Assembly (NCBI GenBank): GCA_947172415.1
Contig: OX359198.1
Span: forward strand, 527,401 to 591,400
From: Chondrosia reniformis
Taxonomy: Eukaryota > Porifera > Demospongiae > Chondrillida > Chondrillidae
Length of the DNA: 64,000 nt
Direction of reading: 5' to 3'
Position numbers and translations under genes: made by a program
The notes under the pieces: model-generated
What the model was told of the DNA's origin: nothing
Databases searched by the model: none
The model's input: the letters and a program-made list of their open reading frames with translations, nothing else
In this document: one piece after another, positions 1 through 62,847 of the stretch
How the letters are laid out: each line of letters begins with the position of its first letter
How positions within the stretch are numbered: position 1 is the stretch's first letter

Positions 1-689
1 TTCACTCTAATCCTTAATTCATGTGAATCTTTTATAACTATTAATGTTATTATTATTATTATAATATTTGAAATCTTTTCTTTTGTCTCATAAAGTTGAG
101 TCACTTGGCAACCAGTTATAAAGACATCTAATATCTAATATTGATATTTCTAGATATATGTATGTACATTCTCTAGATAAATTTTCTATGTTTATTTGCA
201 TGTATTTCTTGATTGAGTGTTGAAACATATTTTGTTCCTTAATTTTACATGAATCATACAATTATTTCATTAAAATTAGTAATGTATATATTGTGTAATA
301 TTACAACCAAGACATGCTATAAGATTTAAATGTTTATATACGTATAGATTACCTTAGTATATTGTAACTTGCACTGTATATAGTAAAAATTGAGTCATTT
401 AAATAATATTTTTGACTGTTTAATGGTAAGCTGGAAATTAAAATGGCAACGAGAGATTATCCATACCATTCTTTACATCGGCTTTGTGCAATCAGCTTTC
501 ATGTGCATATATATACAATTTATGTGCTAACCTTACACCGTGACACATTTGGTATGCTACTCACATCATGTGACTGCTTAGTATTGCGACAACGTACTGT
601 ATGTATATACTCTACAGAGTTAAGGACCTTACCACTGACAGATTGTCTCTACGACTGCTTACGATTGAGCTAAATTAGCGGCCGTCAAC
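1..689. other. AT-rich 5' flank of ROCO copy 1
   Basis: No gene is supported here. A 76-codon open frame at 443-673 has no recognisable domain and ends just before the ROCO start codon, so it is probably leader or chance. Around 342-385 there is a short stretch (TTAGTATATTGTAACTTGCA and neighbours) that also occurs near the right ends of the R1 repeats at about 28.6, 35.4 and 37.5 kb, so a fragment of that family is probably present. Confidence 0.5.
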
Positions 690-3578
690 ATGCCAGTGGT
701 GTTTAGACGAACCTTCAGCCATCAACAGTTCCAACCCGAGCGAATATTCAAACAAGCCTCTAGTCGAACGCCATCCGATGAATGGCACGATTCTTGGGAA
801 TTTGCCGCTGATATGACTACCGCATTCAATAAAGATCTTCCAAGCAGTGACTTAGTAAAACTTGCTAAAGCTTGCCGGGAGCGAACAAGTCGCTACAAAA
901 TTATTTTTGACATGACAGACGACCTTACTGATGAAGCCCTCCAGATGGATGTTGGTGCAGCATTAGTCATAGCAGCGGCTCTTGGTGGAGGTGATGTGAA
1001 CTACACTAGCGGGGAAACTGGTCCAACAGCTCTACACTATGCTGTAGGCTTTGCCAAATTCGAGATAATCAAAGAGCTAGTTAAGAGAGGTGCTAATTTA
1101 AATAAAGGGAGATTTCCAAGTAATATACGTCCTTTTGACATGGCGTTTGTCATTGAAGGCTGTGAGTATAGTGGCATAGAATTTGATGAGATTCATAGGC
1201 AATGTGTTTTGGGCAATGATGATGCTGTTGTTGATCATATAAAACAAGAGAATTTCGATAGTGTTGAAAGGTGTACCGATTTGTTAGTCAAGAGAGAGAT
1301 GACACTGTATATTGCAGCATTTATGGGGAATGAGCGATTAGTTGCAACTCTCTTGTTAGCTGGTGTGTTTCCATTCACTTCTCCATCTGGCAAATATCCA
1401 AAAATTTATGGAAAAATTAAGCCGCTGGGTGAATTTCAACATGAGAAATGTAATGATCTTCTCAAGAAGAGTGGTCATCCAATAGATATCAAGTCAAATA
1501 CTGCTTTCGGTGTGACCGCCTCAACTGCTACCATATTATTAAATGCTGTTGCAGGACCTGGTACTACTTTACTGATCCCTGTAGCTGCTGCAATGCTTGT
1601 AACTGTAGCTATTCCATTGCTTTCATCTTATGCTCTTGGAGTTGTTAATAATCATGCTGTCATGTACAAAGTACCCGTAACACCTCATGGTACTGTTCTT
1701 GTTGTTGGGCAAAAAGAAAATGGGAAAACCACTCTTATCAAAGCCCTTCAAAGAAGTACCGATTTCTTCCAAATCAGTAAGTGGTTTAAGATTAGAAATA
1801 CAGATGTGTATGACCGCACTGCTGGCATAGAAATATCTTTACTGAAGTGTGGTGACAGAACTATCAACTTTTTTGATTTTGCTGGCCACTCTGAATATTA
1901 CGTATCCCATTTGGCCTTCCTAGAAAGCATTTCTTATTCTAAGTTATCTCCTCCAGTTGTCCTTCTAGTCATCCGACTCAACAAATCTCTAGTAGAAACT
2001 CACTCTGAAATCATTACTTGGCTAGAGAACATTAGAGCCAACAGTCAAATGTCTCTGAAGTTCCCAGTTATCTTAGTAGGCACTCACTGTGACATGGTCA
2101 CTAAAGAAGAAGCTGAAGGTGTCCTAACCTCTTGTAGTGACCTGATAGGAAGGTATGATGATACCTTTGAGTTGCAATCCACACTCTCACTTGATGCCGC
2201 CTTGAAATACTCGAATGAATTTGGTAATTTGGTTGCAAATTTAAAATCAGTACTTTCAAAAGAAAGCCACATGTTGACCGACTATTTTACATTTAAATGT
2301 TTATCATCTTGCTACACATTTCTTTCATTCTTGGAAAGATTAAACTTCAAAGAAGCGGTTATTCAGGTCAAAGATATTAAAAATCTCATCACTGCTCATC
2401 CGCTGTTGCTTGAAAGAGAGTTTCTGACCTTCCTATGTCAGAATCTTGCTGCCTTTGGATTGGCCATATACCTACCTAACAAGGTGGATGTACTAGCTGG
2501 TTGGCTGGTCCTGGATGCTCCTAGCATTCTAGAGAAGATCCATGGTCCACTGTTTGCCACTGCACAACACTCTCAGTATAAAGGCAGCATCATAGATAAG
2601 AATGGACTAATGCCAGTTTCTAAACTGCCCTCTCTATTTAGGAAACTTCCGTTTGATTTTGATATGCTCAAATCCTTGCTCATTTCAATGGAGTACTGCC
2701 ATGAGGTAGATCGCACTATTTTAGATATTCCACAATCCGAATATAGGGAAAACGAGACTCTTCTTTTCTTTCCATCAAAAGTGAGAGTTTCTATGCCAGA
2801 TGAAATTAGTAAATTGCTTGAGCAACAGAATTTGAAATGGTTTGCCTGTCAAGTCTGTCCAAAAGACAACGCTCTTCTTACCGCACGATTCAGTTCCATT
2901 CTCCTACTGAGTTTAGCACTCGGCTTTAGGAAGCTCATACCAGGAAAAGATGATGATCAAAATGCCAAATGTACAGTTTGGAAGGATGGACTTCACTGGA
3001 GTTCATCATTTGGCAGCACTGATGTCTACATTCAGTTCCATTCCACCGAATCTCTCCTGATCTTGGTCAGTGGGGAGAGCTTGGAGTTTTGTGTGGAATA
3101 CAGCTTCTACATCATGAAGAAGGTCTTTGAAGTGAAGGAGCGTGCCCTTTGCAATGTTAGTATGGATGTCAACATTGTACAACATGATTCCAAGTTGACC
3201 TCACTTCTGTTGAAAGGATATGAGAAGGGTCACTGCTATCCTCTAGGCAGGGTGATCACATGTCTCTGTGCATTTGCCAATCGTCAACCTGGTAGCCATG
3301 AAGCGAGTTCCTTATCTGAGGTGCCTCTCTGTTGTTGCAAGAGAGAAGAGTGTCAGATCCACTCCACTCGTATGGACCAGGAATATCTTGAGAATCTGCT
3401 TCCTTCATACAACTGGTTGTACCAGTTGGATCCAACAGCCGATCCACCTTCCTTGCCTTTTAATTTAATAGCAAAGAGAGCAACAACTGAAAGTATTCTG
3501 AGGCCCAACTATACTAGACTTGGAGCGGATTTAGACATCAAAGAGAGCAACAAATTGGTTTCATTGACGATAATTTGA
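690..3578 (+). CDS. ANK-Roc-COR (ROCO family) protein, copy 1, C-terminus frameshifted
   Basis: Single open exon of 962 codons. A helical N-terminus (1-100) is followed by ankyrin-type repeats (clear one about 110-141 with TALHYA; another about 204-230), a hydrophobic stretch about 276-317, then a Roc GTPase: Walker A GQKENGKTT about 340-348, DFAGH near 396, and THCD in place of the usual NKxD near 465. A COR-like region follows (about 560-800), with FLCQNLAAFGLAIYLP and later LLISMEYC. ROCO proteins are GTP-regulated signalling scaffolds; ligand and partners here are unknown. Compared with copy 2 (6134-9223), identity is very high from about residue 85 onward, but the N-terminal ~85 residues and the segment before Roc differ. 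The frame is lost near 3520-3570, just where copy 2 enters its CARD-like domain. The start is the first ATG of the frame; an upstream exon cannot be excluded. The hydrophobic stretch may be a membrane helix or part of the fold. Confidence 0.8.
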   Translation: MPVVFRRTFSHQQFQPERIFKQASSRTPSDEWHDSWEFAADMTTAFNKDLPSSDLVKLAKACRERTSRYKIIFDMTDDLTDEALQMDVGAALVIAAALGGGDVNYTSGETGPTALHYAVGFAKFEIIKELVKRGANLNKGRFPSNIRPFDMAFVIEGCEYSGIEFDEIHRQCVLGNDDAVVDHIKQENFDSVERCTDLLVKREMTLYIAAFMGNERLVATLLLAGVFPFTSPSGKYPKIYGKIKPLGEFQHEKCNDLLKKSGHPIDIKSNTAFGVTASTATILLNAVAGPGTTLLIPVAAAMLVTVAIPLLSSYALGVVNNHAVMYKVPVTPHGTVLVVGQKENGKTTLIKALQRSTDFFQISKWFKIRNTDVYDRTAGIEISLLKCGDRTINFFDFAGHSEYYVSHLAFLESISYSKLSPPVVLLVIRLNKSLVETHSEIITWLENIRANSQMSLKFPVILVGTHCDMVTKEEAEGVLTSCSDLIGRYDDTFELQSTLSLDAALKYSNEFGNLVANLKSVLSKESHMLTDYFTFKCLSSCYTFLSFLERLNFKEAVIQVKDIKNLITAHPLLLEREFLTFLCQNLAAFGLAIYLPNKVDVLAGWLVLDAPSILEKIHGPLFATAQHSQYKGSIIDKNGLMPVSKLPSLFRKLPFDFDMLKSLLISMEYCHEVDRTILDIPQSEYRENETLLFFPSKVRVSMPDEISKLLEQQNLKWFACQVCPKDNALLTARFSSILLLSLALGFRKLIPGKDDDQNAKCTVWKDGLHWSSSFGSTDVYIQFHSTESLLILVSGESLEFCVEYSFYIMKKVFEVKERALCNVSMDVNIVQHDSKLTSLLLKGYEKGHCYPLGRVITCLCAFANRQPGSHEASSLSEVPLCCCKREECQIHSTRMDQEYLENLLPSYNWLYQLDPTADPPSLPFNLIAKRATTESILRPNYTRLGADLDIKESNKLVSLTII

Positions 3579-5837: not shown

Positions 5838-6133
5838 TATATATATATGCCTGCACATGCATTATATATGTTAACTTTGATGTAATCACCATTATCTTAT
5901 AATTAAACACATGTAATAAATATCTATAGTAGACTACTTCGAATATTGTTGATTATATCCCAGATTGGGTCTCATTCCTTACGTTGTCCATTTTCATGGT
6001 CTTTTCTGCATGCCTGAGGTTAACCAACAATGACGGCATTTCCGTATGTGTCTAATTTAAGCGATGAGAGTGGAGGCTGAGAAAAAGAGGGTGGCGATCG
6101 GTGAATACTAGTCTAAGATAAAGAGATATAGAG
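5838..6133. other. 5' flank of ROCO copy 2
   Basis: Short non-coding stretch between the right end of the TIR element and the ATG of copy 2. It should hold the promoter and leader of copy 2. No confident core promoter motif was seen. Confidence 0.4.
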
Positions 6134-9100
6134 ATGGCAGTATCCAATCAAAAGGTATATATTAGTGAGAAGCGGTTTAACTGTTATCCTTACCAACCTA
6201 ACATAATTTTTAAAAGTGCCGGAGACTTAAAAAAATGTACATCATTCAACGAAATGGCATGGAACCTTCCTTGGAAAATCATTGAGGGGTTTGCGCGCGT
6301 GTTTAGGCAAGATTTACCTAAGGATCTAGAAAGGTTAGGAAGGTCTTGGCAATCGATTAGTCGATATCAAACTCTAACTGATGTGATCGACGACCTCACT
6401 CTCGAAGCAAAGAGAATGGACGTTGGTGCAGCACTAGTCATAGCAGCGGCTCTTGGTGGAGGTGATGTGGACTACATTAGCGGGGAAACTGGTCCAACAG
6501 CTCTACACTATGCTGTAGGCTTTGCTAAATTCGAGATAATCAAAGAGCTAGTTAAGAGAGGTGCTAATTTAAATAAAGGGGGATTTCCAAGTAATATACG
6601 TCCTTTTGACATGGCCTTTGTCATTGAAGGTTGTGAGTATAGTGTCATAGAATTTGATGAGATTCATAGGCAGTGTGTGTTGGGCAATGTTGATGCTGTT
6701 GTTGATCATATAATACAAGATAATGTGGCCGAATCTACCAACTTTTTAGTCAAGAGAGAGATGGCACTGTATATTTCAGTGTTTATGGGGTATGAGCTAT
6801 TAGTTGCAACTCTCTTGTTTGCTAGTGTGTTTCCATTCACTTCTCAATCTGACAAATATCCAAAAAGTTATGGAAAATTTAAGCCGCTGGGTGAATTTCA
6901 ACATGAGAAATGTAACGATCTTCTTAGGAAGAGTTGTCATCCAATAGATATCAAGTCAAATACCTTTGCTGCTACCATAAGTGCTGTTGCAGGTACTACT
7001 TTACTGAACCCTGTAACTGAAATGCTTGTAAAAGCTACTGTATTCCTTTCATCTTGTGAAGAACTAGATGACGATATTTATCGTTTTATCAAGATCAGAA
7101 TGCTCATAACACCTCGCAGTACTGTTCTTGTTGTTGGGCAAAAAGAAAATGGGAAAACCACTCTTATCAAAGCCCTTCAAAGAAGGACCGATTTCTTCCA
7201 AATCAGTAAGTGGTTTAAGATTAGAAATACAGATGTGTATGGCCGCACTGCTGGCATTGAAATGTCTGTACTGAAGTATGGTATCAGAACTATCAACTTT
7301 TTTGATTTTGCTGGCCACTCTGAATATTATGTATCCCATTTAGCCTTCCTAGAAAGCATTTCTAATTCTAAGTTTTATCCTCCAGTTGTCCTTCTAGTCA
7401 TCCGACTCAACAAATCTCTAGTAGAAACTCACTCTGAAATCATTACTTGGCTAGAGAACATTAGAGCCAACATTCAAATGTCTCTGAAGCTCCCAGTTAT
7501 CTTAGTAGGCACTCATCGTGACATGGTCACTAAAGAGGAAGCTGAAGGTGTCCTAACTTCTTGTAGTGACCTGATAGGAAGGTATAATGATACCTTTGAG
7601 TTGCAGTCCACACTCTCACTTAATGCCACTTTGAAATACTCGGATGATTTTGAAAATCTGGTTGATGAAGTTTACTCAGTACTTTCAAAAGAAAGACACA
7701 TGTTGACCGACTATTTTACATTTAGATGTTTATCATCTTGCTGCAAATTTCTTTCATTCTTGAAAAGATCAAACTTCAAAGAAGCAGTTATTCAGATCAA
7801 AGATATTAAAAATCTCAACACTGCTCAGCCGCTGTTGCTTGAAAGAGAGTTTCTGACCTTCCTGTGTCAGAACCTTGCTGCCTTTGGATTGGCCATATAC
7901 CTACCTAACAAGGTGGATGTACTAGATGGTTGGCTGGTCCTGGATGCTCCTAGCATTCTAGAGAAGGTCCATGGTCCACTGTTTGCCACTGCAGAACACT
8001 CTCAGTATAAGGGTAATGTCATAGATAAGAATGGACTAATGCCAGTTTCTAAGCTGCCCTCTCTATTTAGGAAACTTCCGTTTGATTTTGATATGCTCAA
8101 ATCCTTGCTCATTTCAATGGAGTACTGCCATGAGGTAGATCGCACTATTTTAGATATTCCACAATCCGAATATAGGGAAAATGAGACTCTTCTTTTCTTT
8201 CCATCAAAAGTGAGAGTTTCTATGCCAGATGAAATTAGTAAATTGCTTGAGCAACAGAATTTGAAATCGTTTGCCTGCCAAATCTGTCCAAAAGACAACG
8301 CTCTTCTTACCACTCGATTCAGTTCCATTCTCCTACTGAGTTTAGCACTCGGCTTTAGGAAGCTCATACCAGGAAAAGATGATGATCAAAATGCCAAATG
8401 TACAGTTTGGAAGGATGGACTTCACTGGAGTTCATCATTTGGCAGCACTGATGTCTACATTCAGTTCCATTCCACTAAGTCTCTCCTGATCTTGGTCAGT
8501 GGGGAGAGCTTGGAGTTCTGTGTGGAATACAGCTCCTATATCATGAAGAAGGTCTTTGAAGTGAGGAAGCATGCCCTTTCCAATGTTAGCCTGGATGTCA
8601 ATATTGTACAACATGATTCCAAGTTGACCTCACTTCTGTTGAAAGGATATGAGAAGGGTCACTGTTATCCACTAGGCAGGGTGATCACATGTCTCTGTGC
8701 ATTTGCCAATCGTCAACCTGGTAGCCATGAAGCGAGTTCCTTACCTGAGGTGCCTCTCTGTTGTTGCAAGAGAGAGGAGTGTCAGATCCACTCCACTCGT
8801 ATGGAACAGGAATATCTTGAGAATCTGCTTTCTTCATACAACTGGTTGTGCCAGTTGGATCCAACAGCTGATCCACCTTCCTTGCCTTTTAATTTGATAG
8901 CAAAGAGAGCAACAGCTGAAAGTATTCTGAGGCCCATATACACACAACTTGTGCAGGAATTAGGCGTTCCACAGCTTTGCAACTATTTATATCAAGACCA
9001 ATTGATTGAAGTTAACTTAAAAGAGAAGATTGAAACAAAATCAACTCACCAAGATGCCAATAAGTTATTCATTGATCACATGATTGCTAATTGTACCATT

Positions 9101-9223
9101 TCCACTGTGGAACAGTTTGCTCAGCTTCTAATTGATACATCGGAGAAGCTTGCTAATGAGGTACACAAAGGTATTGGTGAAGAATTAATTGGTGCCATAG
9201 AGAAGCAGAGGAAGATGGTTTAG
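6134..9223 (+). CDS. ANK-Roc-COR-CARD protein, copy 2
   Basis: Single open exon, 1029 residues, in the same orientation as copy 1. Order: divergent N-terminus (1-95), ankyrin repeats (TALHYA motif about 119-150, second about 213-238), Roc GTPase (Walker A GQKENGKTT about 335-343, DFAGH, THRD), COR-like region about 555-800, and a C-terminal helical segment about 936-1010 with CNYLYQDQLIE, THQDANKLFIDHMI and FAQLLIDTSEKLANEV. The last pattern resembles a CARD (xRQDxxxxLxxxL followed by FxxxLxxT). CARDs mediate homotypic assembly in apoptosis and innate immunity, so a GTP-switched immune or death adaptor is a reasonable inference, not shown. Unlike copy 1 it lacks the long hydrophobic stretch before Roc. 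It ends at a TAG where copy 1 has GAG; the next 18 codons stay open to a TAA, so the stop looks like a recent truncation. Confidence 0.82.
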   Translation: MAVSNQKVYISEKRFNCYPYQPNIIFKSAGDLKKCTSFNEMAWNLPWKIIEGFARVFRQDLPKDLERLGRSWQSISRYQTLTDVIDDLTLEAKRMDVGAALVIAAALGGGDVDYISGETGPTALHYAVGFAKFEIIKELVKRGANLNKGGFPSNIRPFDMAFVIEGCEYSVIEFDEIHRQCVLGNVDAVVDHIIQDNVAESTNFLVKREMALYISVFMGYELLVATLLFASVFPFTSQSDKYPKSYGKFKPLGEFQHEKCNDLLRKSCHPIDIKSNTFAATISAVAGTTLLNPVTEMLVKATVFLSSCEELDDDIYRFIKIRMLITPRSTVLVVGQKENGKTTLIKALQRRTDFFQISKWFKIRNTDVYGRTAGIEMSVLKYGIRTINFFDFAGHSEYYVSHLAFLESISNSKFYPPVVLLVIRLNKSLVETHSEIITWLENIRANIQMSLKLPVILVGTHRDMVTKEEAEGVLTSCSDLIGRYNDTFELQSTLSLNATLKYSDDFENLVDEVYSVLSKERHMLTDYFTFRCLSSCCKFLSFLKRSNFKEAVIQIKDIKNLNTAQPLLLEREFLTFLCQNLAAFGLAIYLPNKVDVLDGWLVLDAPSILEKVHGPLFATAEHSQYKGNVIDKNGLMPVSKLPSLFRKLPFDFDMLKSLLISMEYCHEVDRTILDIPQSEYRENETLLFFPSKVRVSMPDEISKLLEQQNLKSFACQICPKDNALLTTRFSSILLLSLALGFRKLIPGKDDDQNAKCTVWKDGLHWSSSFGSTDVYIQFHSTKSLLILVSGESLEFCVEYSSYIMKKVFEVRKHALSNVSLDVNIVQHDSKLTSLLLKGYEKGHCYPLGRVITCLCAFANRQPGSHEASSLPEVPLCCCKREECQIHSTRMEQEYLENLLSSYNWLCQLDPTADPPSLPFNLIAKRATAESILRPIYTQLVQELGVPQLCNYLYQDQLIEVNLKEKIETKSTHQDANKLFIDHMIANCTISTVEQFAQLLIDTSEKLANEVHKGIGEELIGAIEKQRKMV

Positions 9224-27059: not shown

Positions 27060-28650
27060 AACATACGTATATAAAGGCCTTGGCCTTTTTTGTCCTTGTG
27101 TACAAGTTACAAAATGGTCTCTAACCCTGTTGATTATGCCAATGCATGCAACCAACCGTCGGTGTTCTTAGCTCCCTCACAAGGCAAATCAAATCTGCTG
27201 TGGTTATTAGCTGAGACCCCTTTAATACTGGAACCTTTGTTGATATATGGCATGCAGATGCATCATCTTCAGTCTATACTAAGGTGTGAAAAGGTAATTG
27301 GTAGGCCATGTGTTCTACCTTGCAATTGGATGATCTGTATCAACTACTACTCTCTATGCAGTAGTTGAGGATTTCAAAGCCTGCAACAGTACTAGTGTGA
27401 CTAAAGTCTTGTACTGTTTAAAATACTGATTATCCTAGGGGTCACTTGGATCTCTTTAAATTTGTAACTTGCACTGCATGTGTAGCTAGTACTTGATTGT
27501 AATTTTAATATTGTACAGTCACTTGGCCCTCTTAAATTTGTAACTTGTACTGTGTAGTACTTGATTGTAATTTTAATATTGCCAGTAATTTTCACTGTGT
27601 AGTGTACTTGAGTGTAATTAGCCTTCACTATACTTAAGACATTCACTATGAGCAATTTCGTTATGAGATTCTACTGTACACATGGAAAACGTACACACAT
27701 GGATAAGAATAAAGCCTTGTTGAACATCAGTAACATAAATTTACTAATTCTGGACGTTTCAACCCGGAGGTCTTCATCAGTAATACAGGAATGGGAATAT
27801 CAAGTAGGAAATTAGTAAATTCATGTTGCTGACGCTCAACAAGGCTTTATTCTCATAATGATCGCAATAAATACTCCTAATTCTTACACATGGACAAGTA
27901 AAAAATGTAAGAAGAGAAGACAGAACTATACGGTCGACTAAACGAATTTCTTTTGCATCAATATAGGGAGCTACGGAATAAACGAGTTGTAGCGAAGGTT
28001 AGATAAAGCGTATTTGTGTACGTTTCCGTTAAGTTTGAGGCAGAATTGTCCTTCTCGTAGGAGAGCGTCGACTTGTCATAGCCGTTCTCGAAAGGATGAT
28101 CTTCTGTAACAACGAGGCGGTGACGTTTTCGGAACGTCACATGATAATCCACTAAATGTGTACGGAGCGATATACGAAGATGTTGATGACGCACTAGAGC
28201 AACATCCAATACATCACCAGATTGCGCAATCGTAAGCTTGAATTCTTCATTATATCTCGATTATTTTGCAACTTTAATTAAGCAAAACTTCGCCAGACGT
28301 TTGTCATATACATGTACCATGATATATGTCGGTTTCACAGTTATCTGACAAATTAAAATTTTTTACTAATATAACACTTGGTTTCAATATAAACTTTCTA
28401 TAGCTTTTCTATAGTCCTATGGCATTTTATATGCAGACTTTGTCCTCCGTTTTCTACCAAACGGAGACCTAAATAAAAAATCCCTTAATTAAAAATGAGT
28501 TTTATATCCTAATATTTATGATACTATGTACATTCTGTTGCTAGGTCCTTTCCTGGAGCCATATGAATTATTTATATCATTTATTTATTTATTTATATTA
28601 TATTAGATTAGATTAGATTAGATTACCTTAGTATATTGTAACTTGTACTG
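27060..28650 (+). repeat. Repeat R1, single-copy form
   Basis: About 1.6 kb, starting in GTATATAAAGGCCTTGGCCT and ending near TTAGTATATTGTAACTTGTA. Two further copies with higher mutual identity occupy 33861-35463 and 35963-37590. It contains a 92-codon open frame at 27090-27368 kept in all copies, a hammerhead-like core on the minus strand (27756-27780), and in its right half a 6-10 base pattern of scrambled short open frames. No transposase or reverse transcriptase is visible. It may be a non-autonomous retroelement. Confidence 0.65.
27756..27780 (-). ncRNA. Hammerhead-ribozyme-like core in R1
   Basis: Reading the minus strand: CTGATGA, a stem-loop AGACC-TCCG-GGTT, then GAAAC. These are the conserved core boxes of hammerhead ribozymes, with stem II of four pairs. 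Flanking sequences (27723-27752 and about 27805-27845) are inverted copies of each other and could close an outer stem. A cleavage triplet and stem I were not established, so activity is unproven. Confidence 0.4.
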
Positions 28651-28663
28651 TATATATATGGGA

Positions 28664-30800
28664 GACCAGGAGAAGATATATGGTTCCTGAAGATTACATG
28701 GCAGAGGAATCTTCCTTCATCGAAAGGATCATCGGGGATCTCAAGCTGCATGGTTGAAGGTGATCAGGCGAAGCTTGACCAAGTGTATGATGAACTCTGT
28801 GAAGGCTTAAGAAGAAACTTGAAGTTAGTGAAAGGTGGGAAGAAGTCCATGAGCCAACCGTGGTTCTTGGCGGATCTGGCCAGACTGCGTAAGAGTATGC
28901 ACAGAGCTGAGGCTGAATGGTTGAAGAAAAAGGGGAGTGGTGAGCAAGTGAATAGCAGGAATGATTATTTGAGAGCCAGAAACTCGTATGCGAAGGCAGT
29001 TAAGAAGGCGAAGAGGGACTTTCAGACACGAAAGCGGAGGGAGCTGGAGTCAGAGTTAAGTTGTCCAAAGAAGTTTTGGAGGTCCATAAAGAGACTTAAT
29101 GTGCGTAACTCAAAGAAGAAAAGGAACCTTCTAGAAGTACTGGATGAAGATGGAAAACTGAGAACAGATGAGGGGGCTGTTGAGGTCTGGGCTAAACATT
29201 TCAGCGAGTTGCTGGGAACCCATATGGAGAAGGATGACAATACCCCTCCTCAGGGTAGTCGGGGTGTTCAATCTGAGTATGAAGATCACTTGTGTCATCC
29301 CATAACTATGGAAGAAGTACAGTGGGCGTTATACACAGAGTGAGGAAGGACGCAGCTCCAGGGCAAGATGAGGTAGGGGCAGAAATGATGATGGCAGATT
29401 GTATGGCTGACGTGTGGCTGAACCTGTTTCAGGTGTGCTGGGAGTTTAGCATTGTTCCGTCAGTATGGAAGGAGAGTATAGTAGTTCCGGTACCGAAGAA
29501 GCAAGCAAGAGGGGTGTGTGAAGTGGACAATTTCCGTGGGGTATCTCTGTCATCTATCGTGTGCAAGACCATGTGTATGGTACTGAATGTGAGGTTGTCA
29601 ACAGTGGCAGAAGAAGAAGGATTGATAGCTGAGGAACAAGGTGGGTTCCGAAAGATGAGAGGATGTAGAGACCAGATATTATCATTAGTGCTATTGGGGC
29701 AGATGGAGATGATGAAGAAATCGAGGGGATTGATGGTAGCATTTATTGACTTCTCCAAAGCTTATGACAGAATAGATAGAGGGAAACTATGGAAGTGCCT
29801 AGAATCTATGGGAGTGAATGGCAAATTTCTGTCTTTTCTCCAATCGCTTTATGCTGGTACATCATGTTGGGTCAAAGTTGGTGACAGACAAAGTCAAGTT
29901 TTGAATGTCAATGTGGGCCTCCGCCAGGGCTGTGTCCTCTCTCCAGTGTTATTTTCTTTGTACATAAATAGCTTGGTGGATCAGTTGAAGAGCGCCAATT
30001 GTGGGATTGAGTGTGGCTGGCGAGGATGCGATGTGTGCTATTTTGGGGTAAGGTCCTGACCAGCAGAACATATGATGGACGGTTGCTAAGGCGGATAGCA
30101 GCAGAAGCAGTGAGGTTTGGCAGAGGTACTTGGATTTGTAAGATGAGCACGTGTTGGGGGCAGTTTGGGTGGAATGATGTGAATGTGGAGGTACTCAAGG
30201 AGTTGTCGACTGTGGAAGTGAGAGAGATGCTGGAGGCCATTGCTTGGAGGAAAACGCGGGAGGAATGGGGCCATGAGATGGAGACAAAGTCTAAGTTGGA
30301 GATACTGAAGAGGATTGTGAAGTTGGGAGAGTGGTCGGAGTGTGCGAGAGTGGGGAGAAGGGCGGACAGGAGGACGATGATAAAACTAAGAGGAGGCACG
30401 GCAGGATTCCAAATCGAGACGGGAAGATGGAGGGGAGTGACCAGACAGGAGAGAATATGCAAGGAATGTGACAAGGGTGAAGTGGAAGACATGGAACATT
30501 GGTTGATGAGGTGTGAAGCATGGAAATCCCAACGCATACAATTGGAGGCCTGGATGCAACGGCATAGTGACAAGTGCAGTACCCAGGATTCTACTGCATC
30601 TCTGCTGTCGGCTGCATGTAGCAACTATGAACTCTTGTCAATTATTTTGTGTATGTGGCATGCAAGGTTCAGTTAACTCTATTTTGCATGTTCATATTAT
30701 TTATTTTGTCTTGTTGTAAGTGCTGCATGGGGCCAATCCGTGCCCTAGTGCCAATTGGCACGGTGCACTCTAATAATAATATTGATTGATTGATTGATAT
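28664..30800 (+). mobile_element. Decayed LINE (non-LTR retrotransposon) lacking the YADD segment
   Basis: Three overlapping frames hold one former ORF: a basic linker upstream of the polymerase (28750-29343), the reverse transcriptase fingers and palm (about 29336-30040, with AAPGQDEV, PVPKK, NFRGVSLSS, EEQGGFRKMRGCRDQI, AFIDFSKAYDRI, GLRQGCVLSPVLFSLYIN), and a C-terminal part with a CxxC...H...C zinc-binding motif (30030-30676). The palm passes directly from GIECG to C-terminal sequence, so the catalytic YADD block and the thumb are deleted. A frameshift lies near 29336. The 5' end lacks the endonuclease. The 3' end carries an AATAATAATATTGATTGATTGAT-type tail. The copy cannot be autonomous. 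Confidence 0.88.
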
Positions 30801-50605: not shown

Positions 50606-53600
50606 TCAATATGGCAACATGTTCACATCTTCATCCTCCCTTCTCTCATCTTCATTATTATCACCTGCTTCATACCAATCTTTCACTTTCCTCTTCCCAA
50701 AGTAACCAAGACCAGCCACTAACAAGGTTGATATTACATACTCCATCAACTTGGTCCTATCAAAGAGAGGTGACACGTCCCTGTAACGTCTCAACAAGGC
50801 AATAACATACAGTGACAAGCCAGTATAAATGAACACTATAGCAATGCAAAAGAAGATAGTTGCATAGTTGCTACAAATGCAACAATTCTTAGGATGTCTC
50901 AACATCAGATACACTTCATGTAGAATGACTACAATTGCTGCTAACAGTAAAATAAACCAGAAAGTGGAAGTTACAGTTTCTAAGGGTGAGTTAATAAAGT
51001 CTATTCCAAGATATACAATGAATACTCCAAACACCTGAATACCATAGAATGGACCTGCCCATCCAAGAGATACTGCATGACATCTGATTACCCTCCTCCA
51101 TCTTGGAGATACTTGCTGCTGGTTATTATCATTAAGATATTTGCTCATTTTGCTATAAATCAGTGGATATTGACCTATAAAGATGATGAACCCTAATACT
51201 TCAATCATGAGAGCAATCACAGAGTCCGGAAGGAAAAACTCAGGATAGTACTCTTCATGTGACACCAAAAGTAGAGTACATTGTAGGTTGCTCCCAAAAT
51301 AATAACTGATCAATAACAGAGACAGACACCAAGTAAAGAGTGTGATTTCAGTTACTCTTCTTGTTTGTCTCTTTTGACTTTGATTCAGAACAAAAATGAA
51401 AATTTTATTCTCACTTCTGATGAGTCTTATCATTAGCAAATTTCCAAGAAGCAATACCTCAACAAAGACAATGTTCTTTGCTAGAGTGAAGGTCCAACTT
51501 GAAGGAGTAGCTTTTAGTATATTACCAGGTGAAAGTGTATAGAGTGATAATCCATATGGTTTTCCCTCATACCACATTGGTGCATATGCAAAGGAAACCC
51601 CTTGTTGGTCATTCATCACCTTCAGAAAGTATAATGTAGTTATCAATAAACTGAAAGTGTATATATGTCTGTGAATGCTGACATCAAGTATTAGCTTCAT
51701 ATGTTGGTGTTTGAAAGAGTTACAGCAATAAATGTGTATTAAATTTATATATACGATAATTGTACAATACTATAAATGGCCGACCGTGAGTAGGTACCAA
51801 ATGCGATACTATAATATATGTATATCCGAATAACTATAGCGCTTCCAAAGATTTCTTATACACATGGATATGCACTGTATAGTACTTGATTGTTGTTGAA
51901 GCAGTATTTATCCACATACATTATATGGATGTCGTTAAAGTGAAATTTTGCCGATCGACGGCCAACGAAACTCCAAAGAAAAACAGTTGGACCATACCGA
52001 ACGCTACCATCCACGACGCTCAGAGGCCGGGATCGGTGGTAACGCTCTGCCGAGTTGAGCTTTGGGTGTCACTTGCGTGAGAAGAACCAGTTCTTCTCGA
52101 TATGGCCGACTCATATGAATCCTAAGATATCAGATGCCAATCCCACATTACGTGGAACCCCCCCGAAATCCGGATTATTGGTGAGCACGTCTCTATGGCA
52201 CCAACCGATTAGGAGACAGCTTCAGAGTCTAAGCGCTACCAACCTCTATGGGAACCGCAACCACCATAGAGATGTGTCCAGGTAGGCCTACTTTATAAGG
52301 TTTTGCGCTTCTATTTAAACAACAAAATTTCAAAAGGAAACGATTGTGGTTGGCGCTATGCATACTTAAGAATAGGGTATTTGCGAGAAAAATGTAGTCA
52401 AATTATATCAAGTTAATTCGGGATCAGTGCATCGTTCCAAGCCATTTTAAAGGTATATCCAGTATTTGTGGTTCATCTAGAAACTGGGAAAAATGGATAG
52501 AATCCTGTAAGTGTCTTGATTGGCGGAGGAGAACTACTTTTCTGGTCCCATGTAGAAACGATTTTAGCGAGAGGTGTTCCGATATGAAGGTAAACTAGTA
52601 TAACCAGCCACACTCAATCTCAATTGCTGTAATAGTATAATGGCTACCTGCCTCTATATAAAGGCCTTCAGATAGCTGCGTTCTGGACTGTTCCTGCGTG
52701 TTTCTAGTAGTCCCATTCATGTCAAATCATTTTAGCTTGGTATGCCGATAATTTCCATAATAGTATCGCACGATATAAATGCTACACCATTAAAGGTCGT
52801 ATATTAGAAATTTAATGTACATTATGGTGCTGTAACTCTTCCAAATGAAAAGGTTTGAATCTGAAACTCTATCTCAGTATTCACAGAGATGTAAGAAAGG
52901 TTTTCATTGAGTTTTGCAAATTTTGATATCTATATATTCTAATTTGCCTTATCTCTCACCATACGTAATGTATGGTGAGAGATAGTGCAAATATGAACAA
53001 AACTTGAAACTTCTAAAACTGAATTGAAATGTTTCATACATGTCTGTGAATGCTAACATCAAGTATTAGCTTCACATCTTGCTGTTTGATGAAGTTACGA
53101 CCCTTAATGTACATTAAAATCTGCTCTACAAAGTTAATGTATGGTGAGAGATATATAAGGCAAATATGAACAAAAATTGAAACTTCTAAAACTCTTTGGA
53201 AATGTTTCATAAATGTCTGTGAATGCTGAAATCAAGTATTCGCTTCACATCTTGCTTTTTGTTGGAGTTATGACCCTTAATGTACTTTAAAATCTACCAT
53301 ACAAAATTAATGTATGGTGAGAGATAGGGCAATTATGAACAAAAATTAAAACTTCTAAAACTCTTTGGAAATGTTTTATACATGTCTATGAATGCTGACA
53401 TCAAGTATTAGCTACACATCTTGCTGTTTGATGAAGTTACGACCCTTAATGTACATTAAAATCTGCCCTACAAAGTTAATGTATGGTGAGAGATATATAG
53501 GGCAAATATGAACAAACATTAAAACTTCTTAAACTCTTTGGAAATGTTTCATACATGTCTGTGAATGCTAACATCAAGTATTAGCTTCACATCTTGCTGT

Positions 53601-56600
53601 TTGATGAAGTTACGACCCTTAATGTACATTAAAATCTGCTCTACAAAGTTAATGTATGGTGAGAGATATATAAGGCAAATATGAACAAAAATTGAAACTT
53701 CTAAAACTCTTTGGAAATGTTTCATAAATGTCTGTGAATGCTGAAATCAAGTATTCGCTTCACATCTTGCTTTTTGTTGGAGTTATGACCCTTAATGTAC
53801 TTTAAAATCTACCATACAAAATTAATGTATGGTGAGAGATAGGGCAATTATGAACAAAAATTAAAACTTCTAAAACTCTTTGGAAATGTTTTATACATGT
53901 CTATGAATGCTGACATCAAGTATTAGCTACACATCTTGCTGTTTGATGAAGTTACGACCCTTAATGTACATTAAAATCTGCCCTACAAAGTTAATGTATG
54001 GTGAGAGATATATAGGGCAAATATGAACAAACATTAAAACTTCTTAAACTCTTTGGAAATGTTTCATACAGGTCTATGAATGCTGACATCAAGTATTAGC
54101 TTCACATCTTGCTGTTTGATGAAGTTACGACCCTTAATGTACATTAAAATCTGCTCTACAAAGTTAATGTATGGTGAGAGATATATAAGGCAAATATGAA
54201 CAAAAATTGAAACTTCTAAAACTCTTTGGAAATGTTTCATAAATGTCTGTGAATGCTGAAATCAAGTATTCGCTTCACATCTTGCTTTTTGTTGGAGTTA
54301 TGACCCTTAATGTACTTTAAAATCTACCATACAAAATTAATGTATGGTGAGAGATAGGGCAATTATGAACAAAAATTGAAACTTCTAAAACTCTTTGGAA
54401 ATGTTTTATACATGTCTGTGAATGCTGACATCAAGTATTAGCTTCACATCTTGCTGTTTGTTGGAGTTACGACCCTTAATGTACTTTAAAATCTGCCCTA
54501 CAAAGTTAATGTGTGGTGAGAGATATATAGGGCAAATATGAACAAACATTAAAACTTCTTAAACTCTTTGGAAATGTTTCATACATGTCTATGAATGCTG
54601 ACATCAAGTATTAGCTTCACATCTTGCTGTTTGTTGGAGTTATGGCCCTTAATGTACTTTAAAATGTAACATACAAGTTTAATGTATGGTGAGAGATAGG
54701 GCAAATATGAACAAAAATTGAAACTTCTAAAACACTTTGGACATGTTACATAAATGTCTGTGAATACTGACATCAAATATTAGCTTCACATTTTACTGAT
54801 TGACGGAGTTACGACCCTTAATGTACATTAAAATCTCCAACACAAAGTTAATGTATGGTGAGAGATAGGGCAAATATGAACAAAAATTGAAATTTCTAAA
54901 ACTCTTTGCAAATGTTTTATACATGTCTGTGAATGCTGACATCAAGTATTAGCTTCACATCTTACTGTTTGAATGAGTTACGACCCTTAATGTACATTAA
55001 AATCTCCAACACAAAGTTAATGTATGGTGAGAGATAGGGCAAATATGAATAAAACTTAAAACTTCTAAAACTCTTTGGACATGTTACATAAATGTCTGTG
55101 AATACTGACATCAAGTATTAGCTTTACATCTTACTGTTTGCTGGAGTTACGACCCTTAATGTACATTAAAATCTCCAACACAAAGTTAATGTATGGTGAG
55201 AGATAGGGCAAATATGAACAAAAATTGAAACTTTTAAAACTCTTTGGACATGTTACCTAAATGTCTGTGAATACTGACATCAAGTATTAGCTTTACATCT
55301 TACTGTTTGCTGGAGTTACGACCCTTAATGTACATTAAAATCTCCAACACAAAGTTAATGTATGGTGAGAGATAGGGCAAATATGAACAAAAATTGAAAC
55401 TTCTAAAACTCTTTGCAAATGTTTCATACATGTCTGTGAATGCTGACATCAAGTATTAACTTCATATGTTGGTGTTTGAAAGAGTTACAGCAATAAATGT
55501 GTATTTAATTTATATATACGATAATTGTACAATACTATAAATGGCCGACCGTGAGTAGGTACCAAATGCGATACTATAATATATGTATATCCGAATAACT
55601 AGAGCGCTTCCAAAGATTTCTTATACACATGGATATGCACTGTATAGTACTTGATTGTTGTTGAAGCAGTATTTATCCACATACATTATATGGATGTCGT
55701 TAAAGTGAAATTTTGCCGATCGACGGCCAACGAAACTCCAAAGAAAAACAGTTGGACCATACCGAACGCTACCATCCACGACGCTCAGAGGCCGGGATCG
55801 GTGGTAACGCTCTGCCGAGTTGAGCTTTGGGTGTCACTTGCGTGAGAAGAACCAGTTCTTCTCGATATGGCCGACTCATATGAATCCTAAGATATCAGAT
55901 GCCAATCCCACATTACGTGGAACCCCCCCGAAATCCGGATTATTGGTGAGCACGTCTCTATGGCACCAACCGATTAGGAGACAGCTTCAGAGTCTAAGCG
56001 CTACCAACCTCTATGGGAACCGCAACCACCATAGAGATGTGTCCAGGTAGGCCTACTTTATAAGGTTTTGCGCTTCTATTTAAACAACAAAATTTCAAAA
56101 GGAAACGATTGTGGTTGGCGCTATTCCATACTTAAGAATAGGGTATTTGCGAGAAAAATGTAGTCAAATTATATCAAGTTAATTCGGGATCAGTGCATCG
56201 TTCCAAGCCATTTTAAAGGTATATCCAGTATTTGTGGTTCATCTAGAAACTGGGAAAAATGGATAGAATCCTGTAAGTGTCTTGATTGGCGGAGGAGAAC
56301 TACTTTTCTGGTCCCATGTAGAAACGATTTTAGCGAGAGGTGTTCCGATATGAAGGTAAACTAGTATAACCAGCCACACTCAATCTCAGTTGCTGTAATA
56401 GTATAATGGCTACCTGCCTCTATATAAAGACCGTCTGATAGCTGCATTCTGGACTGTCCCTGCGTGTTTCTAGTAGTCCCATTCATGTCAAATCATTTTA
56501 GCTTGGTATGCCGATAATTTCCATAATAGTATCGCACGATATAAATGCTACACCATTAAAGGTCGTATGTTAGAAATTTAATGTACATTATGGTGCTGTA

Positions 56601-59600
56601 ACTCTTCCAAATGAAAAGGTTTGAATCTGAAACTCTATCTCTAATTTCAATTTTTGTTCATATTTGCCCTATCTCTCACCATACATTAAACTTGTATGTT
56701 ACATTTCAATGTACATTAAGGGTCGTAACTCCATCAAACAGCAAGATGTGTAGCTAATACTTTATGTCAGCATTCACAGACATGTATGAAACATTTCCAT
56801 TCAGTTTTAGAAGTTTCAAGTTTTGTTCATATTTGCACTATCTCTCACCATACATTACGTATGGTGAGAGATAAGGCAAATTAGAATAGATATCAAAATT
56901 TGCAAAACTCAATGAAAACCTTTCTTACATCTCTGTGAATACTGAGATAGAGTTTCAGATTCAAACCTTTTCATTTGGAAGAGTTACAACACCATAATGT
57001 ACATTAAATTTCTAATATACGACCTTTAATGGTGTAGCATTTATATCGTGCGATACTATTATGGAAATTATCGGCATACCAAGCTAAAATGATTTGACAT
57101 GAATGGGACTACTAGAAACATGCAGGAACAGTCCAGAACGCAGCTATCTGAAGGCCTTTATATAGAGGCAGGTAGCCATTATACTATTACAGCAATTGAG
57201 ATTGAGTGTGGCTGGTTATACTAGTTTACCTTCATATCGGAACACCTCTCGCTAAAATCGTTTCTACATGGGACCAGAAAAGTAGTTCTCCTCCGCCAAT
57301 CAAGACATTTACAGGATTCTATCCATTTTTCCCAGTTTCTAGATGAACCACAAATACTGGATATACCTTTAAAATGGCTTGGAACGATGCACTGATCCCG
57401 AATTAACTTGATATAATTTGACTACATTTTTCTCGCAAATACCCTATTCTTAAGTATGGAATAGCGCCAACCACAATCGTTTCCTTTTGAAATTTTGTTG
57501 TTTAAATAGAAGCGCAAAACCTTATAAAGTAGGCCTACCTGGACACATCTCTATGGTGGTTGCGGTTCCCATAGAGGTTGGTAGCGCTTAGACTCTGAAG
57601 CTGTCTCCTAATCGGTTGGTGCCATAGAGACGTGCTCACCAATAATCCGGATTTCGGGGGGGTTCCACGTAATGTGGGATTGGCATCTGATATCTTAGGA
57701 TTCATATGAGTCGGCCATATCGAGAAGAACTGGTTCTTCTCACGCAAGTGACACCCAAAGCTCAACTCGGCAGAGCGTTACCACCGATCCCGGCCTCTGA
57801 GCGTCGTGGATGGTAGCGTTCGGTATGGTCCAACTGTTTTTCTTTGGAGTTTCGTTGGCCGTCGATCGGCAAAATTTCACTTTAACGACATCCATATAAT
57901 GTATGTGGATAAATACTGCTTCAACAACAATCAAGTACTATACAGTGCATATCCATGTGTATAAGAAATCTTTGGAAGCGCTCTAGTTATTCGGATATAC
58001 ATATATTATAGTATCGCATTTGGTACCTACTCACGGTCGGCCATTTATAGTATTGTACAATTATCGTATATATAAATTTAATACACATTTATTGCTGTAA
58101 CTCTTTCAAACACCAACATATGAAGCTAATACTTGATGTCAGCATTCACAGACATGTATGAAACATTTGCAAAGAGTTTTAGAAGTTTCAATTTTTGTTC
58201 CTATTTGCCCTATCTCTCACCATACATTAACTTTGTGTTGGAGATTTTAATGTACATTAAGGGTCGTAACTCCATCAAGCAGCAAGATGTGAAGCCAATA
58301 CTTGATGTCAGCATTCACAGACATTTAGGTAACATGTCCAAAGAGTTTTAAAAGTTTCAATTTTTGTTCATATTTGCCCTATCTCTCACCATACATTAAC
58401 TTTGTGTTGGAGATTTTAATGTACATTAAGGGTCGTAAATCCATCAAACAGTAAGATGTGAAGGTAATACTTGATGTCAGTATTCACAGACATTTAGGTA
58501 ACATGTCCAAAGAGTTTTAAAAGTTTCAATTTTTGTTCATATTTGCCCTATCTCTCACCATACATTAACTTTGTGTTGGAGATTTTAATGTACATTAAGG
58601 GTCGTAAATCCATCAAACAGTAAGATGTGAAGGTAATACTTGATGTCAATATTCACAGACATTTAGGTAACATGTCCAAAGAGTTTTAAAAGTTTCAATT
58701 TTTGTTCATATTTGCCCTATCTCTCACCATACATTAACTTTGTGTTGGAGATTTTAATGTACATTAAGGGTCGTAAATCCATCAAACAGTAAGATGTGAA
58801 GGTAATACTTGATGTCAATATTCACAGACATTTAGGTAACATGTCCAAAGAGTTTTAAAAGTTTCAATTTTTGTTCATATTTGCCCTATCTCTCACCATA
58901 CATTAACTTTGTGTTGGAGATTTTAATGTACATTAAGGGTCGTAAATCCATCAAACAGTAAGATGTGAAGGTAATACTTGATGTCAATATTCACAGACAT
59001 TTAGGTAACATGTCCAAAGAGTTTTAAAAGTTTCAATTTTTGTTCATATTTGCCCTATCTCTCACCATACATTAACTTTGTGTTGGAGATTTTAATGTAC
59101 ATTAAGGGTCGTAACTCCAGCAAACAGTAAGATGTAAAGCCAATACTTGATGTCAGTATTCACAGACATTATGTAACATGTCCAAAGAGTTTTAGAAGTT
59201 TTAAGTTTTATTCATATTTGCCCTATCTCTCACCATACATTAACTTTGTGTTGGAGATTTTAATGTACATTAAGGGTCGTAACTCATTCAAACAGTAAGA
59301 TGTGAAGCTAATACTTGATGTTAGCATTCACAGACATGTATAAAACATTTGCAAAGAGTTTTAGAAATTTCAATTTTTGTTCATATTTGCCCTATCTCTC
59401 ACCATACATTAACTTTGTGTTGGAGATTTTAATGTACATTAAGGGTCGTAACTCCGTCAATCAGTAAAATGTGAAGCTAATATTTGATGTCAGTATTCAC
59501 AGACATTTATGTAACATGTCCAAAGAGTTTTAGAAGTTTCAATTTTTGTTCATATTTGCCCTATCTCTCACCATACATTAAACTTGTATGTTACATTTTA

Positions 59601-62600
59601 AAGTACATTAAGGCCATAACTCCAACAAACAGCAAGATGTGAAGCTAATACTTGATGTTAGCATTCACAGACATGTATGAAACATTTCCAATGAGTTTTA
59701 GAAATTTCAATTTTTGTTCATATTTGCCCTATCTCTCACCATACATTAACTTTGTGTTGGAGATTTTAATGTACATTAAGGGTCGTAACTCCGTCAATCA
59801 GTAAAATGTGAAGCTAATATTTGATGTCAGTATTCACAGACATTTATGTAACATGTCCAAAGTGTTTTAGAAGTTTCAATTTTTGTTCATATTTGCCCTA
59901 TCTCTCACCATACATTAAACTTGTATGTTACACTTTAAAGTACATTAAGGGCCATAACTCCAACAAACAGCAAGATGTGAAGCTAATACTTGATGTTAGC
60001 ATTCACAGACATGTATGAAACATTTCCAATGAGTTTTAGAAATTTCAATTTTTGTTCATATTTGCCCTATCTCTCACCATACATTAACTTTGTGTTGGAG
60101 ATTTTAATGTACATTAAGGGTCGTAACTCCGTCAATGAGTAAAATGTGAAGCTAATATTTGATGTCAGTATTCACAGACATGTATGAAACATTTCCAATG
60201 AGTTTTAGAAATTTCAATTTTTGTTCATATTTGCCCTATCTCTCACCATACATTAACTTTGTGTTGGAGATTTTAATGAACATTAAGGGTCGTAACTCCG
60301 TCAATCAGTAAAATGTGAAGCTAATATTTGATGTCAGTATTCACAGACATTTATGTAACATGTCCAAAGAGTTTTAGAAGTTTCAATTTTTGTTCATATT
60401 TGCCCTATCTCTCACCATACATTAAACTTGTATGTTACATTTTAAAGTACATTAAGGGCCATAACTCCAACAAACAGCAAGATGTGAAGCTAATACTTGA
60501 TGTTAGCATTCACAGACATGTATGAAACATTTCCAATGAGTTTTAGAAATTTCAATTTTTGTTCATATTTGCCCTATCTCTCACCATACATTAAACTTGT
60601 ATGTTACATTTTAAAGTACATTAAGGGCCATAACTCCAACAAACAGCAAGATGTGAAGCTAATACTTGATGTTAGCATTCACAGACATGTATGAAACATT
60701 TCCAATGAGTTTTAAAAGTTTTAATTTTTGTTCATATTTGCCCTATATATCTCTTCACCATACATTAATATTGTAGGGCAGATTTCAATGTACATTAAGG
60801 GTCGTAACTCCATCAAACAGCAAGATGTGTAGCTAATACTTGATGTCAGCATTCACAGACATGTATGAAACATTTCCATTCAGTTTTAGAAGTTTCAAGT
60901 TTTGTTCATATTTGCACTATCTCTCACCATACATTACGTATGGTGAGAGATAAGGCAAATTAGAATAGATATCAAAATTTGCAAAACTCAATGAAAACCT
61001 TTCTTACATCTCTGTGAATACTGAGATAGAGTTTCAGATTCAAACCTTTTCATTTGGAAGAGTTACAGCACCATAATGTACATTAAATTTCTAATATACG
61101 ACCTTTAATGGTGTAGCATTTATATCGTGCGATACTATTATGGAAATTATCGGCATACCAAGCTAAAATGATTTGACATGAATGGGACTACTAGAAACAT
61201 GCAGGAACAGTCCAGAACGCAGCTATCAGACGGTCTTTATATAGAGGCAGGTAGCCATTATACTATTACAGCAATTGAGATTGAGTGTGGCTGGTTATAC
61301 TAGTTTACCTTCATATCGGAACACCTCTCGCTAAAATCGTTTCTACATGGGACCAGAAAAGTAGTTCTCCTCCGCCAATCAAGACACTTACAGGATTCTA
61401 TCCATTTTTCCCAGTTTCTAGATGAACCACAAATACTGGATATACCTTTAAAATGGCTTGGAACGATGCACTGATCCCGAATTAACTTGATATAATTTGA
61501 CTACATTTTTCTCGCAAATACCCTATTCTTAAGTATGGAATAGCGCCAACCACAATCGTTTCCTTTTGAAATTTTGTTGTTTAAATAGAAGCGCAAAACC
61601 TTATAAAGTAGGCCTACCTGGACACATCTCTATGGTGGTTGCGGTTCCCATAGAGGTTGGTAGCGCTTAGACTCTGAAGCTGTCTCCTAATCGGTTGGTG
61701 CCATAGAGACGTGCTCACCAATAATCCGGATTTCGGGGGGGTTCCACGTAATGTGGGATTGGCATCTGATATCTTAGGATTCATATGAGTCGGCCATATC
61801 GAGAAGAACTGGTTCTTCTCACGCAAGTGACACCCAAAGCTCAACTCGGCAGAGCGTTACCACCGATCCCGGCCTCTGAGCGTCGTGGATGGTAGCGTTC
61901 GGTATGGTCCAACTGTTTTTCTTTGGAGTTTCGTTGGCCGTCGATCGGCAAAATTTCACTTTAACGACATCCATATAATGTATGTGGATAAATACTGCTT
62001 CAACAACAATCAAGTACTATACAGTGCATATCCATGTGTATAAGAAATCTTTGGAAGCGCTCTAGTTATTCGGATATACATATATTATAGTATCGCATTT
62101 GGTACCTACTCACGGTCGGCCATTTATAGTATTGTACAATTATCGTATATATAAATTTAATACACATTTATTGCTGTAACTCTTTCAAACACCAACATAT
62201 GAAGCTAATACTTGATGTCAGCATTCACGGACATGTATGTACGTACATTTTAAATCAATACAGAAATTATACAAGTATATAATGAAAGTGCACATATTAT
62301 ACAAGGTTTACGTATATTCACTTACATTAGCTGCAAAGTCCTGCAAAATGGAGGGATCACATAAAGTTGGAATTGTCAAGCAAAGTGATTGTGGTAGATA
62401 AATCGAATCCCTTTCGATGAAATGAAGCATGAGAGGAGGTAGTGCTAAATAGTAATAATAGCAGTATGACATGAATATACCACAATCCTTAGTATTCCAC
62501 TGACAACAAGGTTTCTCTATATATAACACTGTGTTATTCTGACTAGTTGCATTGATCATTTTGAAGTGGAACACTTTGATTCGCTTTGTAAGATTAATTT

Positions 62601-62847
62601 CCTTTATATCCAGTGGATTGCCAAAGTAATCACGAATACCAAAGTGCTTGTTTCCGCTTCTGAGGACATCCATCATCTGATCTAAATTCTCTACACTTTC
62701 CTTGTTCTTGTAATTTTCCTCTCCATTTGTGTATCTAACCTGAAGCAGTACTAGCATCAGTAAGTAGACAGTGAAGGTCGAGGATAGAGGACACTTTAGA
62801 TAAGTCATAACTGCACTTTGAATTCTATCAACTGCAGAGATGGGCAA
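50606..62847 (-). CDS. Seven-helix receptor-like protein, array gene E, with a 10.7-kb intron
   Basis: Exon 1 62847-62326 (174 codons) and exon 2 51619-50606 (338 codons), phase 0, 511 residues; the GTAAG donor and CTGAAG acceptor are kept. The intron (51620-62325) is 10706 bases, against 130-340 in the other array genes, because of the insertion at 51666-62233. Ectodomain: the first cysteine of the family (KECVENL) is serine here (KESVENL), and a new cysteine appears after CGIFMSY. Two residues are missing in the NNFGKR region (NLTKR). Helices and the acidic tail are intact; three residues are missing before QQQVSPRW. Coding frames are open throughout, so it could still be expressed if the intron is spliced. 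Confidence 0.75.
52953..52987. repeat. Perfect palindrome at the A-unit/satellite junction
   Basis: TATCTCTCACCATACGTAAT reads into its own complement at the inner end of A1. Equivalent palindromes occur near 56841-56875 and 60917-60951. Each joins two satellite monomers in opposite orientation. Confidence 0.75.
52972..55430 (+). repeat. Left satellite array, ~169-173-base monomers with 515-base higher-order period
   Basis: The marker ATGGTGAGAGATA recurs at 52972, 53141, 53314, 53483, 53656, 53829, 53998, 54171, 54344, 54513, 54686, 54854, 55024, 55193 and 55362. From 53141 to about 54513 the spacings run 173, 169, 173, and blocks 515 apart are almost identical, so three monomers form one higher-order unit. 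After 54686 the monomers become 168-170 with a different variant (CTCCAACACAAAG). Confidence 0.88.
55431..58155. repeat. Central inverted pair of A units (A2 and A3)
   Basis: A2 (55431-56642) and A3 (56885-58155, inverted) are near-identical, separated by about 240 bases of satellite in head-to-head order. A2 is slightly truncated at its inner end relative to A1. Shared open frames are 55651-55845 and 55820-56050 with mirror copies at 57535-57934. Confidence 0.8.
58156..60950 (-). repeat. Right satellite array, inverted, organised differently
   Basis: Monomers of the same family in reverse orientation, marker CATACATTAA at 58221, 58390, 58559, 58728, 58897, 59066, 59234 and so on, mostly 169 apart. 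58390-59066 is one variant repeated five times almost unchanged. From 59403 to about 60584, two variants (TTTGTGTTGGAG and CTTGTATGTTAC types) partly alternate. It does not mirror the left array. Confidence 0.85.

Follow-up and report, generated by a model that had tools for sequence, protein, structure and literature searches.

The closest described counterpart of the locus analysed here is Tetris of Drosophila virilis, in which long inverted repeats, each composed of flanking domain, tandem repeats and inner domain, enclose a non-coding middle, for which, as far as the cited account goes, no transposase has been found and whose monomer also forms satellite arrays elsewhere (TIR-220; PMC4079207). 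Three structurally complete Tetris copies are flanked by target duplications of 8-9 bp and four rearranged copies by duplications of 9-10 bp, the ends are common to the short element DAIBAM, and the order of events has been read by the authors as foldback element first and satellite second (PMC4079207). Equally, satellite-like repeats have been reported to be carried by Helitrons and Helentrons in the oyster Crassostrea gigas, and the same source recounts the stem-loop model of Izsvak and co-workers, comprising fold-back copying of a nascent strand, extrachromosomal release of a stem-loop and its integration by local homology (PMC8268682). A search of the literature on sponge satellites and on transposable elements of Chondrosia found no matching paper, which is not proof of absence.

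The window, the whole stretch of 64,000 nucleotides that was analysed, is C10:527401-591400 of Chondrosia reniformis odChoReni1.1, an assembly published as 14 chromosomes and a mitochondrion (PMC12181767); the genome searched comprised 117,379,552 bases in 15 contigs. Five tandem sister genes, A to E, with predicted membrane-like proteins of about 500 aa, occupy positions 19832-62910 on the minus strand and are read as two exons each, the frames being open over 498-502 aa, with GTAAGT at the donor and AG at the acceptor. The introns of A to D measure 306, 178, 160 and 334 bp and that of E 10,706 bp. A preliminary description had proposed a 10.57-kb insertion in the intron of gene E that leaves the gene unbroken, which agrees with a 498-aa frame that stays open and with consensus splice sites from which splicing is predicted. 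The sister genes B and C had been taken as an empty site fixing the insertion ends; indeed, with the insert removed and its flanks joined, gene E can be aligned to both, though the exact ends stay loose by about 0-6 bp, given a target rich in TA/TG and a satellite that continues in a similar way (CATACA, then TGTC). The pairs of sister genes differ by a dS of 0.08-0.14, and the four pairs involving E have a dN/dS of 0.43-0.49 and thus give no sign of relaxed constraint in E. A Pfam scan of the exons from D and E, the only exons of the family scanned, found no family. Elsewhere in the window, a tandem gene pair with ankyrin repeats and a Roc domain lies at 669-3578 and 6122-9223, the second copy being slightly below the Roc cut-off, and a reverse transcriptase fragment lies at 28642-30059, where two frames overlap and the second contains RVT_1. 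The features of gene E and its insert, as assembled, are the following (window positions).

50606..51619, minus strand: gene E exon 2; acceptor AG at 51620-51621, with 46 intron bases between acceptor and insert
51666..62233, no strand: whole insert, from the empty-site alignment against genes B and C; ends plus or minus about 0-6 bp
51666..52966, plus strand: left terminal inverted repeat, 1301 bp; outer unit A1 with satellite-like ends
51757..52843, plus strand: A core 1 (A1), from blastn and genome copies
52811..52964, minus strand: right end of A1; satellite monomer, diverged and inversely oriented
52966..55488, plus strand: left satellite array of about 14.8 copies at a 169-bp period; local three-monomer higher-order repeat
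55522..56609, plus strand: A core 2 (A2), from blastn; right end cut at about 56641
56641..56645, no strand: central junction, where the truncated A2 meets inverse satellite; single genome match
56642..56943, no strand: middle between the mirror arms, 302 nt; inverse satellite and the end of A2'
56976..58063, minus strand: A core 2' (A2'), inverted, from blastn
58097..60936, minus strand: right satellite array of about 16.8 copies at a 169-bp period, expanded locally by one and by two monomers
60936..62233, minus strand: right terminal inverted repeat, 1298 bp
61055..62142, minus strand: A core 1' (A1'), inverted, from blastn
62326..62808, minus strand: gene E exon 1, taken from the first ATG in its open frame; donor (GTAAGT) retained

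The anatomy first described is borne out in its main lines. The terminal inverted repeats, put at about 1.28 kb, measure 1.30 kb and are identical in 1290 of 1302 columns (99.1%), with 7 substitutions; they end as mirror images (TGTC...GACA), and their tips resemble the satellite monomer, as had been claimed, with blastn matches at 51662-51743 and 62156-62241. The four near-identical A cores, each of 1087-1088 bp, follow in the order +,+,-,- and differ pairwise by 5-10 substitutions, and the arrays of 169-bp satellite described between them are located inside the arms of the inverted repeat. In class-1 A cores, to which those of the window belong, satellite-like sequence flanks each side in opposite orientations, so that each unit forms a small inverted-repeat structure by itself. 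In line with the earlier remark that no transposase is visible, the longest stop-to-stop frame entirely within the insert has 80 aa, and 7 of the 32 listed insert frames were scanned against Pfam with no match above cut-off; three weak matches (E 0.05-0.2) lie under the cut-off and were disregarded. Across the window, neither Rfam (no match above cut-off) nor a tRNA search gave a hit, and an RNA gene considered for the palindromic junction at 52852-53078 was dropped, its nine weak matches (E up to 1) being far under the cut-offs.

Outside the insert, the A units and the 169-bp monomers constitute a dispersed satellite, present in tandem at many loci with edges that lack a fixed terminus. The search for A-unit copies that had been suggested found at least 40 long genome matches of the core, four of them in the window, a lower bound for which 40 of 1002 candidates were scored; defined ends were encountered at the two tips of the insert only. 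A pattern for the left end of the A unit (at most 3 mismatches) occurs at 37 places in the genome, all of which were inspected, and at 35 of them, of which 33 lie elsewhere and two belong to the inner A units of the insert, the sequence continues into satellite, with 14-15 of 15 bases matching. The two tips of the insert alone break off, with 6 and 7 of 15 satellite bases and at the same base, a point shared by none of the other 35 left ends. The notion of A units as elements with defined ends is thereby largely overturned, all 33 left ends outside the insert entering satellite, and a fixed transposon tip for A units, tested on all 37 left ends, was dropped. A mirror piece of composite satellite is consequently the better reading of the insert, in preference to one copy of a discrete element with inverted repeats. 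A second class of A cores lies in the opposite sense inside a continuous array; two such units, on chromosomes 4 and 10, were checked for clean ends over 350-400 bases per flank, and both proved to be within diverged satellite.

The edges of whole satellite blocks tell the same. Twelve of 19 printed edges were read as outer and one further edge was added, the seven others having been set aside, by reading, as places where another element interrupts the block or the core changes; none of these 13 outer edges, as read, coincides with the tip of the insert, and they fall at various satellite phases or within the core, two of those counted as outer (C3:926363 and C7:6936886) having small satellite pieces about 0.8-1.2 kb beyond. 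Satellite arrays are present at the inspected loci on chromosomes 2, 3, 7, 10, 11 and 13, and a 28-base satellite motif has 1021 genome matches (at most 2 mismatches; places listed for chromosomes 1-3); six apparent solo monomers were short arrays on inspection. The 77 listed A places form 22 clusters, all at no more than 27.3% of chromosome length from an end, a distal placement with a uniform chance of about 2e-6, the limit being derived from the same data. A further A unit with satellite lies about 100 kb away from the insert (C10:475501-477950), ending near putative exons of an integrin-type gene as judged by eye.

The mirror order +,+,-,- is unique to the insert among the class-1 blocks inspected. 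Neighbouring A units elsewhere stand in direct order, with four pairs 2.7-3.7 kb apart on chromosomes 3 and 13 among the matches listed, which points to a block with two A units as a common form. The exception is found on chromosome 13, where a minus unit at 5686494 and a plus unit at 5699304 face each other with their left ends across an array that itself switches orientation; such switches are not rare, five having been examined on chromosomes 7 and 13. At up to 3 mismatches, a single genome match was obtained for the central junction of the insert; the junction is asymmetric, A2 being cut at 56641 so that 302 nt have no mirror, and displays an overlap of at most about one base by eye. On both sides of it the inner monomers follow one another in mirror order, at 98-99% (54684/59576, 54853/59407, 55022/59238, 55191/58563). 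Monomers 55022 and 55191 are closest to their own mirror partners (0.991 versus 0.944 and 0.976 versus 0.947 outside the window, 474 monomers compared), and for 54684 and 54853 other monomers, from beyond the window, match about equally well (0.982 and 0.994); the outer monomers differ between the arms through local expansions. Among the A cores, compared after exclusion of alignments shorter than about 950 bases (29 retained; five diverged cores are absent from the site table), one variable block groups the units crosswise, A1 being like A2' and A2 like A1', and A2 differs from a chromosome 13 core by 3 substitutions and from A2' by 10. The crossed variants and the greater proximity of A2 to the chromosome 13 core speak against a plain mirror copy and require either later conversion or two source blocks. 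At core positions 908-924, two alternative block forms occur genome-wide, in crossed order in the four units of the window.

The manner of insertion can be approached through the junctions. At the right junction satellite and intron both go on with TGTATG, giving 6 shared bases, a match that is equalled at 7 of the 1330 control positions taken from introns A to D; at the left junction the shared run is only 1 base. A check for a target duplication, as had been advised, did produce a candidate of 8 bp flanking the mirror tips at 51666 and 62233 (TGTATATA and TGTATGTA, 7 of 8 bases), a score that is equalled by 147 of 300 control pairs in a search over a box of end positions, the ends not being fixed; moreover, the uninserted gene B already contains TGTATATA three times. 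Clean short duplications do accompany two other insertions into the satellite family. One is an element of about 10.2 kb in a satellite block (C7:6913620-6923847), examined and rejected as an unrelated CACTA-type element: it has an 848-aa tnp2 transposase frame, is bounded by CACTGCAAGAA of its own and is accompanied by an ACA duplication within one monomer; the other is a 2.3-kb element in an A core (C13:5679631-5681906) with the ends TGTCACAG and CTGTGACA and a CCGG duplication. Since the candidate duplication of the insert is at chance level, as opposed to the clean ACA and CCGG, joining with little or no homology appears, from the junction sequences, to fit the entry of the insert better than the action of a transposase.

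On balance, we consider it probable that a two-A satellite block became an inverted dimer, either through fold-back synthesis or through the union of blocks head to head, and was then joined into the TA/TG-rich intron of gene E. The source would be the composite satellite, 169-bp monomers broken up by A cores of about 1.1 kb, of which a block (A, array, A) would have become an inverted dimer when a nascent strand folded back or when two blocks joined head-to-head. The dimer would then have been joined into a TA/TG-rich stretch of the intron, a few shared bases probably assisting, and conversion or exchange would have followed. What we infer is the fold-back intermediate, which might have been extrachromosomal, how it was joined and that no transposase took part. 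The insert is a good candidate product of the stem-loop model outlined above (PMC8268682), which has, however, been proposed there for short inverted-repeat elements, whereas the arms of the insert measure about 5 kb and the intermediate is a postulated one.

The main rival, which we regard as unlikely, is a non-autonomous Tetris-like foldback transposon with A1 as flanking domain, the array as tandem repeats, A2 as inner domain and the 302 nt as middle, moved by a transposase in trans, the satellite blocks elsewhere being later expansions. The likeness to Foldback elements seen in the preliminary description persists in this domain order, which is the same as in Tetris, and in the non-coding middle, the absence of a detected transposase and the satellite arrays elsewhere, as Tetris is portrayed in the cited account (PMC4079207); the exact mirror tips between TGTATATA and TGTATGTA are such as a transposase could leave, and class-1 A units carry inverted satellite-like ends of their own. 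On the other hand, the insert differs from Tetris as portrayed there in being a single mirror copy with 169-bp monomers, no demonstrable duplication and no other end at its tip (PMC4079207). Against such an element stand the left ends that enter satellite, a tip reused by no other A left end found or block edge as read, a central junction matched once in the genome and a duplication score that many controls reach. Helitron, MULE and P-like proteins do exist in the genome, yet a distance of about 77 kb separates the closest of their listed places from a listed A place (C13:1.567 versus 1.490 Mb), and among the matches listed for MULE (8) and TNP-like RNaseH (22) none is near a listed A place.

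A relation to the oyster repeats was equally weighed. Helitrons and Helentrons have asymmetric ends (5' TC, and 3' CTRR with a hairpin) and no long inverted repeats; the ends of the insert are mirror images, and membership was rejected. The monomers of about 170 bp in scattered short arrays beside other repeats do resemble the oyster repeats as reported (PMC8268682), unlike which the insert is a mirror structure, and the 133 listed Helitron_like_N matches lie between 2.3 and 6.5 Mb in the central parts of chromosomes, whereas the listed A places lie in the outer arms.

That the arms or array copy numbers were misassembled at a long inverted repeat is very improbable. The length of the insert is near the read length (mean HiFi about 12.9 kb, from published totals divided; PMC12181767), but the arms differ in their monomers and by the terminal substitutions and the centre is asymmetric, so that the locus is not a simple folded or duplicated contig, and the assembly has a published QV of 69.8 (PMC12181767). 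An in-place inverted duplication of a single block that had inserted first, with which the parts of the inner arms that are mutually closer than to any other monomer compared would agree, is just as improbable, there being no mirror duplicate of the intron flank and both ends stopping at the same satellite base.

A palindromic repeat of 10.6 kb is tolerated inside an intron, and its effects on splicing and stability are open to testing. The insert can be dated by its neighbours, with A cores that differ by 5-10 substitutions per about 1087 positions and gene copies at a dS of 0.08-0.14. Rather tentatively, and with more doubt than for the single locus, blocks of the composite satellite, which cluster in the outer arms, might disperse by folding back, free of a transposase: each would leave as an inverted dimer and enter an intron at a site of little homology, a route from satellite to foldback-like elements and not the reverse. 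For at least one locus, the sister-gene empty site, the single-match junction and the 37 left ends together suggest that the satellite came first and the foldback-like structure second, which is the reverse of the order proposed by the authors of Tetris.
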